From assembly GCF_000186345.1 (NCBI RefSeq), contig NC_014962.1, positions 2,942,450 to 3,006,449 on the forward strand: DNA of 64,000 bases, written 5' to 3'. The notes beneath the pieces were generated by a model. The model did no database searches. It was given only the letters and a program-made list of their open reading frames with translations, and was not told where the DNA came from. Source of the DNA: Isosphaera pallida ATCC 43644 (GTDB taxonomy: Bacteria > Planctomycetota > Planctomycetia > Isosphaerales > Isosphaeraceae). The stretch's first letter is position 1. Each line of letters opens with the position of its first letter. Both the position numbers and the translations under genes were made by a program. Below are positions 1,330 to 42,224 of the stretch, piece by piece.

Positions 1330-3924
1330 ATGTGGATGAGGGCAGTGGCGCGGGTGGTGGCGAAGCTGGCGGCCGATCGTTTGGCCGAGGGGCGTCTGCG
1401 TGGCACCTTGGAGGAGGTGGCGGCGCGGTTGTGGGCCGAAGAGGGGCCGGTTCGCTCCGACGCCCAATGGCGTGCGGCGTTGTCAGCCGAGGCGCGACGG
1501 GACACGGAGGAAGCGTTGCGACGCGCCGACGAGTTGGCCGTGGAGTTTGGCGGGAATCTCAGCGAGGCGGCGTCGCTGGCGCTACGGTCGTATCTGGGGG
1601 TGGTGCCCTCGCGCGTGCGGCTGTCCCAGCGTCGTCCCGACGACCCTCAAGGATGGACCACTCCCGATTGGTTGATCCCGCGGCGCGCGCATGACCTGAT
1701 GCGGTTTTTGCCGCCGGCGGTGCCCACCTTCCAGCCAGGCGCGATGCCGTGGGACTCGGCCGACTGGGAGTTGACCGACCTGTTGGGGATTGGTGGCTTT
1801 GGCGAGGTCTGGAAGGCGCGCAATCCGCTGTTTCCGGCGGTTCCTCCGGTGGTCTTCAAGTTTTGCACCCTCAAACGCGCTGAGCAAATGGCGTTTCGTC
1901 ACGAGGCGGCGATCTTGTCGCACGCAATCCGCGAGCGGGTCCATCCCGGGTTGATTCCGCTTCGGGCCACCTTTTTGGAGCGTCAACCTCCGTGCCTGGC
2001 GTTTGAGTACGTCGAAGGGGGCGATCTTCAGCAGTGGTTCCTGGGACGGGCCCACCCGGAGCGTCCCTTGAGCCTGCGGCGGGTGACTCGGATCGTGGCG
2101 CGTTTGGCGGCGATCTTGGCGTTTCTGCATCGTCGCAACCCACCCGTGGTTCACCGCGACCTCAAACCCGCCAACATCCTGGTGAGGCGTCGTCCGGGCA
2201 GGCGGGGTGGTTTGGAGTTCCTGATTTGCGACTTCGGCATCGGCGGCTTGGCGGTCCCAAGCGACCCAGAATCGACCATCCAGGGCCGCGCAGGGCGGTC
2301 CGCGGCGGGGCTGGGCGATTCCACGGCAACGACCGCGTCGGACAAGCTGATTCAATCCGCCCGGTTTCAGGGCTCGTTCACGCCTGGTTATGCCTCGCCT
2401 CAACAGGCCCGCGCCTCAACCCCCAGCCCGCGCGACGACGTGTTCGCCCTGGGGGTGGTCTGGCACCAGTTGCTGGTCAACGACCTCAACGCCTTCCCGC
2501 CCAACGATCTCTCTTATCGACGCATCTATGAGCGCTTGGATCGTGGGATGACCCAGAGTCAGATGGAGTTGGTGGGATCCTGCTTCTCGTCGCGCGCCGA
2601 TTTGCGTCCGCCCGACGCCGGCGCGTTGCTTCAGGCCATGCGGAAGGAGTTCGCCGACTTTTTCCCGCCCCCGCGGCGGCGGGTCGGTCAAGGCGGTGTC
2701 CAACCGGAGGGGTCCGGCGGCGGTTCCCCATCGAGCGGCTCCCGTCGCCTCGTCGAAGGGGGGACAGCGATCCGTAACGGCATCCGACGGTTGATTGGCG
2801 GCTCGCCCAGGTCGGACGGTGGGACCTCGGCGACTTTGGAATCGCCTCGGTCTTCATCTTCCCCACCGCCCTCTCCACCGTCCGCCTCTGCCACGACTTC
2901 GACAGTCCACGACGCGCCGTCTCTTGAGGCGTCGGCGGACCCAACGGCCAATCTCCTCGCGGCTGAACCAGAGTCCAGGGCCAGTCGGGAGGCGCAAACA
3001 CTCGCGTCCACAACCTCGGCCGCCGGCTCCACGTTGCCTCACCCCTCTACATTGCGCCATTCCTGGATTCGGCGTGCGGCTGGGTCCTCGCCCGGTTCGT
3101 CTTCAACATCCACGATGGCCGTGGCCACGCCGCCGACGCCTCCAACCTCTCCACCTTCGACCTCGCGGCGACCGTCGCCCACGCCGTTGCAAGACACAGC
3201 CTCCTTGTTGAATCCGCCCGTCGATCCAACAACGTCCGACTCGACGCGCGGGGTGTCCCATCCGGCTTCCGACCCAGGCCACGAGACCCACCCTCCTTCG
3301 ACGATCGCAACCGAGGGGTTCACCATGTCCGCGCGTTTCGACCCACCGTCTTCAGGCAGTTCCTCCAGCGTAATCCGTCCTGAGCCTCCGACCGCTCCGC
3401 CGCCTCCTACGGCTCCTCTGTCCTCCTTCGAGAGTTCGGACGACTCGTTGGATTCGTTGAGAGGGTGGGATTCGGACAGCTCGCTGGAGGCCGCCAGTGA
3501 ACTCGGCTCGGTTGATCCGGGAGCCGTCTCGGTCTCGGAAGTCAATCTCATCGCGCCGATGCCTGGCGTCTGGCGCGAAGACCCCGAAGGCGGGTTGAGA
3601 TTGGATCAGCCCGACCATCCCCGGATCGCCTCGGCCAAGATTCACCTCTCGGCGTTGCGGACTTGTGGTTCGGCTCGGGTCAAAGCGCTGGCCAAGACCT
3701 TGGAGGCCGGTCTGAATCAACGGTTCATCACCCAATCGGCATTGATCGAAGTGACCATCCTCTGTCACGGCGGCGGCGACGACGAGGAGTTGGTCAAAAG
3801 CGCCACGGTCAAACTGTTCGGTCTGCTTCCCCCTGCCCTGGCCGATCTCAAGGGGCGTCCCCTGGTCGATGACGTGACCCTGGCCGCGTTGTATCAACGC
3901 TGGATTGAAGCGATTGTTTCCTAA
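1330..3924 (+). CDS. Large serine/threonine protein kinase with Ser/Pro/Thr-rich linker and C-terminal domain
   Basis: An 864-residue Hanks-type kinase. After an alpha-helical N-terminal region (1-150) comes the glycine loop GIGGFGEVW (about 153), the VFKF lysine (about 178), the catalytic loop HRDLKPANIL (about 275) and DFG (about 299). The DFG is followed by an unusually long activation region before FTPGYASPQQ, the equivalent of the APE motif. The kinase fold ends near 437. Residues 440-715 are very rich in Ser, Thr and Pro and probably disordered. The last 110 residues become ordered and acidic-hydrophobic again, a separate C-terminal domain I do not recognise. There is no transmembrane segment, unlike the PASTA-type kinases, so it is probably cytoplasmic. 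GAGGGAG at 1316-1322 supports the start. Substrates are unknown. Confidence 0.9.
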   Translation: MWMRAVARVVAKLAADRLAEGRLRGTLEEVAARLWAEEGPVRSDAQWRAALSAEARRDTEEALRRADELAVEFGGNLSEAASLALRSYLGVVPSRVRLSQRRPDDPQGWTTPDWLIPRRAHDLMRFLPPAVPTFQPGAMPWDSADWELTDLLGIGGFGEVWKARNPLFPAVPPVVFKFCTLKRAEQMAFRHEAAILSHAIRERVHPGLIPLRATFLERQPPCLAFEYVEGGDLQQWFLGRAHPERPLSLRRVTRIVARLAAILAFLHRRNPPVVHRDLKPANILVRRRPGRRGGLEFLICDFGIGGLAVPSDPESTIQGRAGRSAAGLGDSTATTASDKLIQSARFQGSFTPGYASPQQARASTPSPRDDVFALGVVWHQLLVNDLNAFPPNDLSYRRIYERLDRGMTQSQMELVGSCFSSRADLRPPDAGALLQAMRKEFADFFPPPRRRVGQGGVQPEGSGGGSPSSGSRRLVEGGTAIRNGIRRLIGGSPRSDGGTSATLESPRSSSSPPPSPPSASATTSTVHDAPSLEASADPTANLLAAEPESRASREAQTLASTTSAAGSTLPHPSTLRHSWIRRAAGSSPGSSSTSTMAVATPPTPPTSPPSTSRRPSPTPLQDTASLLNPPVDPTTSDSTRGVSHPASDPGHETHPPSTIATEGFTMSARFDPPSSGSSSSVIRPEPPTAPPPPTAPLSSFESSDDSLDSLRGWDSDSSLEAASELGSVDPGAVSVSEVNLIAPMPGVWREDPEGGLRLDQPDHPRIASAKIHLSALRTCGSARVKALAKTLEAGLNQRFITQSALIEVTILCHGGGDDEELVKSATVKLFGLLPPALADLKGRPLVDDVTLAALYQRWIEAIVS

Positions 3925-6716: not shown

Positions 6717-7172
6717 TTGAAACCGATCGCCGATTCCGACGCTTCGAACGCCGCCGAATTCACCCCGCCAAGATTGGGGTATGTGATTGTTTATGTCAAC
6801 GATGTTCCCGAGGCGCTGAGGTTCTACGGCAAGGCGTTCGGCCTGCCGACCCGGTTTTTGCACGAGTCCAATCAGTACGGCGAACTGGAAACCGGCGGCA
6901 CCGCCCTGACTTTCGCCTCGCACGCTCTGGGTGCGGCCAACTTGGCCGTGTCGCTCCCCGAAGGCTATCAGCCGGTCGAGCCGGCGGGACGGCCCTTCGG
7001 GTTGGAACTTTCCCTCACCGTGGCCGACGTGCCACTAGCCTACCAACGCGCCTTGACGCACGGCGGAATCGGCGTGACCGAGCCCACCATCAAACCTTGG
7101 GGACAGACCGTCGCCGTGGTACGCGACCCGTTCGGCCTGCTGGTCGAGATCGGCACGGCTATCAATGAGTGA
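6717..7172 (+). CDS. VOC-superfamily (glyoxalase/bleomycin-resistance-like) protein
   Basis: About 151 residues if it starts at the TTG at 6717. The core starts LGYVIVYVNDVPEALRFYG, the standard first beta-alpha unit of the vicinal-oxygen-chelate fold, and ends with WGQTVAVVRDPFGLLVEIG, the typical last strand with its metal-binding Glu. Members bind a divalent metal and act as isomerases, dioxygenases or resistance proteins. The sequence is closest in style to short stand-alone glyoxalase-like proteins, whose substrates cannot be told by reading. The TTG start is chosen because GGGAGG precedes it by nine bases and because the in-frame ATG at 6645 has no ribosome binding site and would add an odd, low-complexity leader. 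A heptamer repeat array begins eight bases after the stop. Confidence 0.8.
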   Translation: MKPIADSDASNAAEFTPPRLGYVIVYVNDVPEALRFYGKAFGLPTRFLHESNQYGELETGGTALTFASHALGAANLAVSLPEGYQPVEPAGRPFGLELSLTVADVPLAYQRALTHGGIGVTEPTIKPWGQTVAVVRDPFGLLVEIGTAINE

Positions 7173-7180
7173 TCCAATAT

Positions 7181-7271
7181 GTGGGGTGTGGGGTGTGGGG
7201 AGTGGGGTGTGGGGTGTGGGGAATGGGGAATCAGGGATGGAGCATTGGGCGTTTGGAGTGGGAAGTGAGAA
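7181..7271 (+). repeat. G-rich heptamer tandem array (array 1)
   Basis: From 7181 to 7229 there are seven contiguous 7-bp units of the form GTGGGG(T/A) or ATGGGGA, giving GGGG runs spaced by three bases. They grade into diverged heptamers to about 7271. The last three (GTTTGGA, GTGGGAA, GTGAGAA) resemble the components of the 28-bp repeat at 23915-24194, so this is a decayed or nascent member of the same family. Confidence 0.85.
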
Positions 7272-7306
7272 ATTCCTCGATTCGCAGCCCCGCTAGGTTC
7301 ACTCCC

Positions 7307-7711
7307 TGTAGACCAGGGCACAAGCCCTGGGAACTGGGTTGCATAGACCAGACGACCTCCCATCAAACCATCCGAGGGCCACGCGATATTTCATCTCATC
7401 CCACCATGCCAGTTGATGACGCGGCCTCCCGGGCCCCGGTGCAGTCGTTTCCAAAGGAACACTGGCATCATAGCAAATGGAATTTCAACACGTCGATGTA
7501 CTCTCAAACCGGAGAAATGATAACGTCTTTAATTATCAGAGAAAACTAGATTAAAGTCCCGGTTCTTAGGGCTTTGGGAACCACCCCGGTCGAGTCGGAC
7601 AAGCATGGATAGATGAACTGGAGTGGTGAGATGAGATGGCGCTTGGTTCATCCTTTTGTTTCCCAGGGCTGTGCTCTGGGCTGGGGGAACGACCCGGGTG
7701 GAGTTGGGTAA
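7307..7711. repeat. Diverged palindromic repeats (REP-like)
   Basis: AGACCAGGGCACAAGCCCTG at about 7306-7325 is matched in reverse complement near 7663-7685 (CCCAGGGCTGTGCTCTGGGC). The sequence following the latter, GGGAACGACCCGGGTGGAGT, has a diverged direct copy at about 7576-7595 (GGGAACCACCCCGGTCGAGT). Each copy can fold on itself through the GCCC/GGGC arms. This looks like a dispersed repetitive extragenic family, but copies outside the window cannot be seen. Confidence 0.4.
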
Positions 7712-23611: not shown

Positions 23612-23781
23612 TGCGACTGGCCTTTCGCTCGATTCCATTCCACGTCGTCGAGTCAGCTTGGAGGAGCTGCCGACCTCAAGCGGATGAACTCCCCTCCAAA
23701 CGGGAACCAATCCTTCGCTCAAGACCCCAAAGATAAGTCACCTCGAAATCGGTTTGCAAGGTGATACCACATAAATCAACT

Positions 23782-23914
23782 GTGGGGTGTGGGGTGTGGG
23801 GTGTGGGGAGTGAGGAGTGGGGTGTGGGGTGTGGGGTGTGGGGTGTGGGGTGTGGGGAGTGGGGAGTGGGGTGTGGGGTGTGGGGAGTGAGGAGTGGGGT
23901 GTGGGGTGTGGGGA
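23782..23914 (+). repeat. G-rich heptamer tandem array (array 2)
   Basis: Nineteen contiguous 7-bp units, mostly GTGGGGT with some GTGGGGA and two GTGAGGA. GGGG runs are separated by exactly three bases, the canonical pattern for intramolecular G-quadruplex folding on the plus strand. The array passes without a break into the 28-bp repeats at 23915. Confidence 0.95.
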
Positions 23915-24215
23915 GCTTGGAGTGGGACGCGAGAAGCGGGGAGCTTGGAGTGGGACGCGAGAAGCGGGGTGCTTGGAGTGGGACGCGAGAAGCGGGGTGC
24001 TTGGAGTGGGACGCGAGAAGCGGGGTGCTTGGAGTGGGACGCGAGAAGCGGGGAGCTTGGAGTGGGACGCGAGAAGCGGGGTGCTTGGAGTGGGACGCGA
24101 GAAGCGGGGTGCTTGGAGTGGGACGCGAGAAGCGGGGTGCTTGGAGTGGGACGCGAGAAGTGGGGTGCTTGGAGTGGGACGCGAGAAGCGGGGTGCTTGG
24201 AGTGAGGTGTGAGAA
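23915..24215 (+). repeat. 28-bp higher-order tandem repeat built from four heptamers
   Basis: Ten full 28-bp copies (starts at 23915, 23943, 23971 and every 28 bases to 24167) plus a diverged partial copy from 24195. Each copy begins GCTTGGA and ends GCGGGG followed by T or A. The copies differ only at that last base and at one C-to-T change near 24161. The unit divides exactly into four heptamers in phase with array 2, so it arose by amplification of a block of four diverged heptamers. Because 28 is not a multiple of three, reading frames cycle through three translations and are meaningless. Confidence 0.95.
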
Positions 24216-24331
24216 TGGCGAAGTAAGTGCGGAAGGCAAAAGAATTAGGGTGTGGACAGGAAGAATCCTAGGTCCATTCCAAAATCGCCCTCACTTGCCC
24301 AAGAGAATGGCCGCGCGACCACCATTTTCCC

Positions 24332-24492
24332 ACACCCCACACCCCACACCCCACTCCCCACTCCCCACTCCCCACTCCCCACTCCCCACTCCCCACTCCC
24401 CACTCCCCACACCCCACACCCCACACCCCACACCCCACTCCTCACTCCTCACTCCTCACTCCTCACTCCCCACACCCCACTCCCCACTCCCC
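24332..24492 (-). repeat. Inverted G-rich heptamer tandem array (array 3)
   Basis: Twenty-three contiguous 7-bp units reading A-C-(A/T)-C-C-C-C on the plus strand, with four ACTCCTC variants near the end, so the G-rich strand is the minus strand. It is the inverted counterpart of array 2. The two could pair as a long cruciform or hairpin around the unique 24216-24331 segment. The Rieske gene stops 20 bases beyond its right end. Confidence 0.95.
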
Positions 24493-24511
24493 ACACTCTT
24501 CCCCAAATTGA

Positions 24512-24904
24512 TCACGAGGAAGGCACAGCCACCTGTATTTCGTCGCCCACCACCCGCACCGGATAGGCTTCCACGCCGTCGCGCCGCCCGTCGATCCAAC
24601 GACCGGTCTTGAGGCAGAATCGCCAGCCGTGATGACGGCACGTCACCGACTGGTCAAACACCAGGCCATCGTGCAACTCCGCCCCCTGATGCGGACAAAA
24701 ATCGTCGATCGCGTAGTGGGCCGACCCATCGAAGAAGACTGCCACTAACCGGCCCTCCACCACGAACCCCTTGCCCGTCGCTGGCGCGATCTCGCCGACC
24801 CGCGCCACGGTTCGCCACGGCGCGCCGTTGGGACCCACCGCGTCGTCGCCGCAACCAAGGGGAGACTCTGGATTCGTTCTTTCAGAAGAGTTGGGACTGG
24901 ACAT
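24512..24904 (-). CDS. Small Rieske [2Fe-2S] ferredoxin-like protein
   Basis: 130 residues from the ATG at 24902-24904, which has GAGG eight bases upstream. The Rieske cluster ligands are complete: CPHQGAELHDG (about 71) and CRHHGWRF (about 88), the two Cys-x-His pairs. The surrounding strands (VAVFFDGSAHYAIDDFCPH, LKTGRWIDG) match the NirD/dioxygenase-ferredoxin type. There is no signal peptide or membrane anchor, so it is a soluble electron carrier or a small oxygenase subunit. No oxygenase or nitrite reductase gene is adjacent, so its partner is unknown. An open frame continues upstream to 25318, but those residues look non-coding. It is divergent from the PSD1 gene. Confidence 0.87.
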   Translation of the reverse strand: MSSPNSSERTNPESPLGCGDDAVGPNGAPWRTVARVGEIAPATGKGFVVEGRLVAVFFDGSAHYAIDDFCPHQGAELHDGLVFDQSVTCRHHGWRFCLKTGRWIDGRRDGVEAYPVRVVGDEIQVAVPSS

Positions 24905-40679: not shown

Positions 40680-42224
40680 ATGACTCGCCCACGCCCTTCG
40701 CGGTTCCGATTCCGGGCCGCGCGGTTCGCGTTCCCTGGGGTTGCTGCCCTAGCGCTGACGGCTCTGGGAACGGCCCCTGCCTCCGCCTGTTACTGCGGCG
40801 CGACCCGGTTCAACGCGGTTCCGTCCTCCTATGCCGTGACCGCCTGTCAGACCGTCACGCTGGCTCCCCAATGTCACACCGTCACCCGCAACGTAGTGGA
40901 GACGGTGTTCCAGGATTGTCCCGTCACCGTTTACGAAACCCGTTACCGCGAAGAAATTCGCACCGAAACCTACAACGTCCAACGCCCCGTTTACGAGACC
41001 AGTCAGGTCGAACGCCGCTACACGGTCCAGCGTCCCGTCTACGAGACCACCAACACCGTGCGCAAATACACCGTCATGCGTCCGGTCTATCAGACCGAGC
41101 AACGCGAACGCCGCTACACGGTCCAGCGTCCCGTCTACGAGACCACCAACACCGTGCGCAAATACACCGTCATGCGTCCGGTCTATCAGACCGAGCAACG
41201 CGAACGCCGCTACACGGTCCAGCGTCCCGTCTACGAGACCACCAACACCGTGCGCAAATACACCGTCATGCGTCCGGTCTATCAGACCGAGCAACGCGAA
41301 CGCCGCTACACGGTCCAGCGTCCCGTCTACGAGACCACCAACACCGTGCGCAAATACACCGTCATGCGTCCGGTGGTCCAAACCCAGGTGGTTCGCCAAC
41401 CTTACACCGTGTACCGCCCGGTGATTGAAACTCGTCAAGTGGTTCAAGAATGTGGCGGGTTCGAGACTCAGTTGGTGGAGATTCCCGGTCGGATCAAGTG
41501 TCAGCGGGTCGTCGTGCACGATCCGTGCGGCCCGGTGGTCGCCACGGCGTTAGTACAGCGGCCCTCGCGTTTTGTTTGCCGACGGGTCTTCGTTTCCCGT
41601 CCAGTGGTGCGCGAAGTGCAGACCACCCGCTACGTCGCCGAGACCGCCTACCGCGAAGTTCCAGTCCAAACCTGCACCTATGTGGCCGAGGAACGCGAGG
41701 AAACCGTTCCGGTGACCACCTGCCGCATCGTCACCGAAGAACGGGTTGAACCCTATCAGGTGACTGTCTGCCGCATGGTGGCCGAGGAACGCGAGCAAAC
41801 CGTTCCGGTAACCACCTGTCGCATCGTCACCGAAGAACGGGTCGAACCCTATCAGGTAACCACCTGCCGCATGGTGGCCGAGGAACGCGAGCAAACCATT
41901 CCGGTGACCACCTGTCGCATCGTCACCGAAGAACGGGTTGAACCCTATCAGGTGACCGTCTGCCGCATGGTGGCCGAGGAACGCGAGGAAACCATTCCGG
42001 TGACCACCTGCCGCATGGTGGCCGAGGAACGGGTCGAGCGCGTACCGGTGACCACCTGCCGCATCGTCACCGAAACGCGAAGCCGTCAGGTCAAGGTTTA
42101 TGTGCCCGAGCGCGTGCCAGTCACGCTGATGCGACGAGTTTCCCGCCAGGTTCTCCGGCCGGTTGTGACCCAATCCTGCGTGATGGTTCCAGTAGTTCAA
42201 CCCGCCTGTTTGATCTGCCAATAA
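40680..42224 (+). CDS. Secreted YTV-repeat protein
   Basis: 514 residues from the ATG at 40680. Signal peptide: FAFPGVAALALTALGTAPAS with A-S-A cleavage before CYCG. The mature protein is almost entirely short repeats of about 16 residues. Residues 85-245 use units such as RYTVQRPVYETTNTVR and KYTVMRPVYQTEQRER, the planctomycete-specific YTV motif (Y-T-V-x-R-P-V-x-E/Q-T). Residues about 333-463 use a second type, VPVTTCRIVTEERVE and YQVTVCRMVAEERE. It ends VVQPACLICQ. Regular cysteines in the second array could crosslink. YTV proteins are predicted surface or wall structural proteins of Planctomycetes; none is functionally proven to my knowledge. The DNA of the first array is nearly perfect (separate entry). 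Confidence 0.9.
   Translation: MTRPRPSRFRFRAARFAFPGVAALALTALGTAPASACYCGATRFNAVPSSYAVTACQTVTLAPQCHTVTRNVVETVFQDCPVTVYETRYREEIRTETYNVQRPVYETSQVERRYTVQRPVYETTNTVRKYTVMRPVYQTEQRERRYTVQRPVYETTNTVRKYTVMRPVYQTEQRERRYTVQRPVYETTNTVRKYTVMRPVYQTEQRERRYTVQRPVYETTNTVRKYTVMRPVVQTQVVRQPYTVYRPVIETRQVVQECGGFETQLVEIPGRIKCQRVVVHDPCGPVVATALVQRPSRFVCRRVFVSRPVVREVQTTRYVAETAYREVPVQTCTYVAEEREETVPVTTCRIVTEERVEPYQVTVCRMVAEEREQTVPVTTCRIVTEERVEPYQVTTCRMVAEEREQTIPVTTCRIVTEERVEPYQVTVCRMVAEEREETIPVTTCRMVAEERVERVPVTTCRIVTETRSRQVKVYVPERVPVTLMRRVSRQVLRPVVTQSCVMVPVVQPACLICQ
41010..41372 (+). repeat. 96-bp coding tandem repeat within the YTV gene
   Basis: Three copies starting at 41010, 41106 and 41202 are identical base for base over 96 bp. 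A fourth from 41298 is identical until 41372, where it diverges. Each copy encodes 32 residues, that is, two 16-residue YTV units. Identity at third codon positions shows recent unequal exchange or gene conversion. Confidence 0.95.
41680..42070 (+). repeat. 48-bp-based coding repeats, second array of the YTV gene
   Basis: Roughly eight 16-residue units alternate between TCRIVTEERVEPYQVT and VCRMVAEERE(Q/E)T(V/I)PVT forms. The DNA copies are clearly related but carry scattered differences, so this array is older or less homogenised than the one at 41010-41372. Confidence 0.85.

Follow-up and report, generated by a model that had tools for sequence, protein, structure and literature searches.

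Short tandemly repeated repetitive (STRR) sequences of cyanobacteria, described in 1990, are reportedly simple repeats with no encoding element, and to our knowledge no function has been assigned to the IVP/S23 protein family. In the intervening sequence (IVS) of Coxiella 23S rRNA, two to three tandem heptamers, variable in number between strains, lie upstream of an S23p (IVP) open reading frame (ORF); the IVP gene is enclosed by inverted repeats, and the IVS was proposed to be a selfish element (PMC4990558). Heptamers that form G-quadruplexes (G4) were described in Xanthomonas and Nostoc by Rehm et al. (2015; PMC4692102), who place them in intergenic DNA, in sense near stop codons and often in convergent pairs (70–75 pairs in Xanthomonas), and give no explanation of their function. 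A survey found G-patterns to be strongly over-represented in Isosphaera pallida, Microcystis, Anabaena, and Nostoc (PMC4060949). Here we analyzed a pair of G-rich heptamer arrays beside a Rieske-type ferredoxin gene in a 64,000-nucleotide stretch of I. pallida ATCC 43644 (NC_014962.1, positions 2,942,450 to 3,006,449; hereafter the window). We observed an architecture shared with other copies, a placement at stop codons, a dispersal of the DNA between the arrays (the core), and, in plasmids, the insertion of arrays and an IVP gene as one unit; on this basis, the pair is likely an ORF-less copy of a stop-codon-inserting element of the IVP type, whose inverted 7-bp ends have overgrown.

The pair was present as an earlier note, made from the sequence alone, had described it: Tandem Repeats Finder returned 19 and 23.7 copies on opposite strands (Table 1). 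All 19 left units had been read as GTGGGG(T/A), and 17 are indeed strict GTGGGGW units, the other two being GTGAGGA; the core is unique in the genome, with a size close to the 116 bp first given. Matches to three units (up to 3 mismatches) numbered 46 in the window vs. a mean of 0.03 in window shuffles. Inverted tandem 7-bp repeats stand at both ends, with at least four consecutive G-tracts; the arms are 84–93% complementary, and ~390–440 nt separate them. The inward continuation of the left array is built of a unit of four diverged heptamers (GCTTGGA, GTGGGAC, GCGAGAA, and GCGGGGT), the 98% identity of which suggests a recent block-wise amplification.

This organization resembles several of the described systems in part. 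As with the repeats of Rehm et al. (PMC4692102), the unit is a G-rich, intergenic heptamer that lies in sense near stops and occurs in convergent inverted pairs; the I. pallida unit is GTGGGGW rather than GGGAATC or GGGGA(C/T)T, and it comes with shared cores, polar arrays, abutment of stops within 0–17 nt, and a connection to IVP genes, the last of which was not found in the accessible text of that study. The likeness to cyanobacterial STRRs proposed in the earlier note held up, as both consist of 7-bp tandem units and the identical heptamer, widespread but patchy, was found mostly in cyanobacteria, where GTGGGGW is common. Similar to the 23S rRNA IVS, the window element ends in inverted repeats that can pair into a stem. 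Unlike the IVS, which resides in helices of the 23S rRNA, I. pallida copies are intergenic and follow the stops of protein genes, and most of them, the window copy included, lack the ORF, which is present in a sister element at 2792571–2793786. REPIN-RAYT systems served as our working analogy, since they too combine one coding gene with dispersed, gene-less inverted repeat pairs; the element has no Y1 transposase, however, and both the repeat and the protein fold are different.

The sister element carries a 123-aa ORF between 65-bp inverted arms. Its product matched PF05635 (E = 7e-40) and TIGR02436, has a solved homolog in 2GSC of Xanthomonas, and is encoded by the sole PF05635 gene of the genome. 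An IVP gene between inward-pointing arrays was also found at two loci from other phyla, in Nostoc and in a Nitrosomonadales genome. In a set of 80 IVP loci from 30 genomes, G-rich heptamer arrays bracketed the gene inward at 23 loci, compared to 0/91 control genes, and outward at none (0/80). When the unit was left free, tandem repeats of period 7 were detected upstream of 59, downstream of 60, and on both sides of 49 of the 80 loci (control placements: 10, 22, and 3 of 240, respectively), and other periods were hardly or not enriched (periods 5 and 8–12: 0–3/80; period 6: 4–8/80). Where the units on the two sides could be compared, they were inverted in 36 cases and direct in 12. The units themselves varied (GGGACCG in X. 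codiaei, GGGAACA in Moorena, GGGGCAA in Microcystis, and GGGATTT in the Nitrosomonadales genome). Among IVP genes of public plasmids, chosen regardless of repeats, period 7 was found upstream in 12/16, downstream in 11/16, and on both sides in 10/16, and further degenerate cases were visible by eye. The rule of placement was the same as in I. pallida: of the 71 IVP loci with an upstream array, 41 had a sense stop no more than 20 nt from its start. We found no IVP gene in phages. The IVP protein also matched the profile of Avd, from diversity-generating retroelements, but weakly (E = 3e-4) and below the curated cut-off; the element showed no reverse transcriptase or variable repeat, although no search aimed at them was made. 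On cyanobacterial plasmids, IVP genes were seen between cas genes of type III-B (cas10/cmr3) and type I-D (cas6/cas4) operons, and an IVP element of Xanthomonas codiaei lies, by eye, between two genes resembling carA and carB.

Next, we examined the array family across the I. pallida genome (5,529,304 bp, with a second replicon of 56,340 bp). The earlier note had left room for a one-off, a chance microsatellite with no other such arrays in the genome; a survey by pattern matches and fetched stretches, in which degenerate arrays elsewhere may be missed, revealed about 20 chromosomal sites in addition to the plasmid, with 81 overlapping four-unit matches on each strand, so the pair is no single occurrence. 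Relatives gave a different picture: a three-unit pattern was absent from all 36 same-family genomes searched, and 2 other genomes of the 244 sampled in the phylum had 1–3 pattern matches. Pairs accounted for 13 sites, one of which was found through core A (see below), and in 13/13 the G-rich strands run inward (plus on the left, minus on the right). Arrays ranged from 1–2 to more than 20 units and were polar, with a pristine, sharp, gene-facing head and inward decay (29 vs. 3 arrays). Four cores recur: core A at 3059, 3070, and 4130 kb; core B at 3422, 3456, and 3462 kb; core C at 3299 and 3307 kb, in opposite orientations; and core D at 2549 and 2949 kb, the latter inside the window. The third copy of core B has arrays of only 1–2 units, yet abuts stop codons on both sides. 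Sites with the same core are neighbors, with 5 pairs within 50 kb, a number reached in 0/20,000 permutations; we also observed, post hoc, that 14/20 sites are concentrated at 2.5–3.7 Mb. Core A was not found in plasmids. GC skew over 20 samples showed no clear switch by which to map origin and terminus. The 56-kb plasmid record opened inside a heptamer array, whose length there may be an assembly estimate, and beside an array and a CsrA-like gene on the plasmid we noticed CRISPR-like tandem repeats with ~73-bp spacing and a palindromic unit.

The position of the arrays relative to genes was then quantified, taking the 5′ end of the G-rich strand as the array head and calling genes with a simple codon-usage gene finder. 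In 21 of 34 cases, the head follows the stop of an intact gene by 0–17 nt, with the G-rich strand in sense; a random intergenic position and orientation would give 0.030 (binomial ~1e-24, counted on 32 heads). Profile matches reach the protein ends of DNA polymerase I, formate dehydrogenase, HemW, gamma-glutamyltransferase, a ribosome hibernation factor, and the Rieske protein, the last of which has an intact C-terminus and is full length by profile (domain matched to 103/104). Truncation of genes by the arrays was therefore rejected. An element that lands right after the stop codon would leave host genes whole. The earlier note had called the pair an unusual structural element; the arrays are real, but placement at stops and the link to IVP point to an insertion element and not to a purely structural one. 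For GTGGGGW arrays of other genomes, mostly cyanobacteria, a sense stop was present within 20 nt of the head in 19/108 vs. 3/108 in a mirrored control. Inverted pairing was rare for GTGGGGW in the cyanobacterial sample and therefore does not come with the heptamer itself. Targeting specific to TGA was also considered (21/22 stops are TGA vs. 72% in the background; p = 0.007) and rejected as a general rule, as cyanobacterial stops are mixed.

Comparisons of empty and filled sites were available for cyanobacterial plasmids at three junctions, with flanks 96–99.5% identical. At a junction between TraM and a hypothetical gene, the site is empty in Nostoc C057, arrays plus IVP are found in Nostoc C052 and CCNP1411, and Nostoc ATCC 53789 carries an inverted heptamer pair without an ORF (flanks 96% identical). 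At the second junction, the insert is missing from N. linckia and A. laxa and present in T. variabilis, with flanks 98–99% identical, and a decayed copy sits on a C052 plasmid. The cas10/cmr3 junction is empty in Picosynechococcus 7002 and filled in 7003. Arrays and IVP gene together make up an insert of ~430 bp that starts at the stop codon or only a few bases away, and in one comparison GTAAT, which contains the stop codon TAA, was duplicated.

Taken together with the window pair, these observations lead us to the following model. The coding form of the element would carry the IVP gene (PF05635/TIGR02436), a four-helix bundle whose product may recognize the 7-bp repeats or their RNA and would move both full and ORF-less copies in trans. 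In I. pallida, the arrays would then have grown by slippage into long G4-capable tracts, with the freshest units facing the genes. The window copy has neither an IVP gene nor a core shared with a coding copy, and could only be an ORF-less derivative. As a likely side effect, the Rieske transcript, which would run into G-rich repeats 17 nt past the stop, would gain a 3′ tail that forms first a G4 and then a hairpin, and this tail might delay the polymerase or shield the end of the RNA. With regard to the quadruplex or cruciform anticipated in the earlier note, a folding model with G4 terms predicts G4 as the sole fold for RNA of the right array by itself (−123 kcal/mol), making a quadruplex plausible there, but favors the hairpin when the element is folded as a whole (−404 kcal/mol).

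Several points weigh against this interpretation. Neither the core of the window pair nor any of cores A–D yielded a trace of IVP in a tblastn search, and the membership of the window pair therefore rests on architecture and not on core homology. The array-rich genomes of Microcystis viridis and Planktothricoides gave no match to IVP; arrays can thus exist or persist without it. We know of no transposase or nuclease activity for IVP. The target-site duplication GTAAT appeared in only 1/3 empty-site comparisons, and about 10 heads lie 17–222 nt from start codons rather than stops, with two single arrays in divergent regions. Finally, the 30 genomes were chosen for holding heptamer arrays and include relatives that are not independent, and the plasmid set of IVP genes is small (n = 16).

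The arrays might instead be ordinary microsatellites of the STRR type, unconnected with any element, that grow by replication slippage in intergenic DNA and are not tolerated in genes or promoters. The broad but patchy occurrence of the same heptamer, the spread of array lengths, and the pristine gene-facing ends with inward decay, as in polar repeat growth, all agree with such an origin. Slippage leaves unexplained, however, why the strands run inward in every pair, why cores are shared, why heads sit 0–17 nt from stops, and why period 7 alone brackets IVP genes, and we regard this explanation as unlikely. The DNA after stops in the I. pallida genome is not G-rich, which speaks against it too, and seeding of the arrays from G-rich 3′ DNA was rejected on the same base composition. 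Growth coupled to transcription was likewise dropped, as start-side arrays are as long as stop-side arrays. That equality of lengths also counts against a selected, bidirectional 3′-end element, in which G-rich RNA after the stop would pause polymerase or block 3′ exonucleases and a hairpin would form between the arms. Such a role would fit the G-rich strand lying in sense directly after stops, a placement shared with Xanthomonas and Nostoc (PMC4692102), as well as the predicted G4 and hairpin folds and the failure to find a canonical U-tract terminator between 22900 and 25400. But Rho is encoded in the genome, and 0/36 same-family genomes with arrays means that the function is not needed; we consider a selected 3′-end role quite improbable.

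Repeats of the repetitive extragenic palindromic (REP), bacterial interspersed mosaic element (BIME), or REPIN type, moved by a RAYT (Y1 transposase), are also extragenic, located at gene 3′ ends, and arranged in inverted pairs. The units here are 7-bp tandem arrays, though, and not 20–40-bp palindromes with GTAG or CGTC tags, and the only match to PF01797, within a very long frame, is ~2 Mb distant, leaving this origin barely credible.

If the pair is indeed an ORF-less copy of an IVP-type element, the heptamer repeats of cyanobacteria, xanthomonads, and other bacteria could be the ends or remnants of one widespread class of stop-codon-inserting, transposase-free IVP elements with ORF-less copies moved in trans, a generalization for which we see the balance as even. 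Earlier reports of heptamer repeats, of which there are several, left them unexplained; the 7-bp architecture and the insertion at stop codons tie them to the IVP family. This may explain seven-base repeats that have been puzzling in cyanobacteria for decades, would give the IVP family a function, and offers a testable model of an element without a recognized transposase that moves with little damage to the host; it would also be a natural source for many bacterial G4-forming tracts. The occurrence of G4 heptamers near stops in convergent pairs was already known, and the link of IVP to 7-bp arrays is new here; we found no published IVP–heptamer link, in a search whose coverage excluded subscription journals and most preprints and which is thus not proof of novelty.

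Table 1. Heptamer arrays and associated features in the window (positions are those of the window).
Feature	Position	Strand	Remarks
Left heptamer array	23782–23914	G-rich strand +	Period 7, 19 copies at 23781–23913 (Tandem Repeats Finder)
28-bp higher-order repeat	23910–24204	+	10.5 copies, 98% matches; inward continuation of left array
Repeat-free core, ~125 bp	24205–24328		Occurs once in genome; no IVP gene; no homology to other cores
Right heptamer array	24329–24494	G-rich strand −	Period 7, 23.7 copies; head faces Rieske stop codon
Rieske-type [2Fe-2S] ferredoxin gene	24512–24904	−	Start codon uncertain; TGA stop 17 nt from right array
Second array, same family	7181–7229	+	8 nt after TGA of glyoxalase-type gene (6717–7172)
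Core D after second array	7275–7499	+	78% homologous DNA inside another array pair, chromosome 2549618–2549715

The second array in the window, a related site, had been overlooked in the earlier note. An unassigned minus-strand ORF has the left array upstream of it. A search of Rfam gave no match above a family's threshold. Elsewhere in the window, long 48/96-bp tandem repeats with up to 100% matches and lengths that are multiples of three occur at 41009–41374 and 41682–42064, and these probably encode a repetitive protein.
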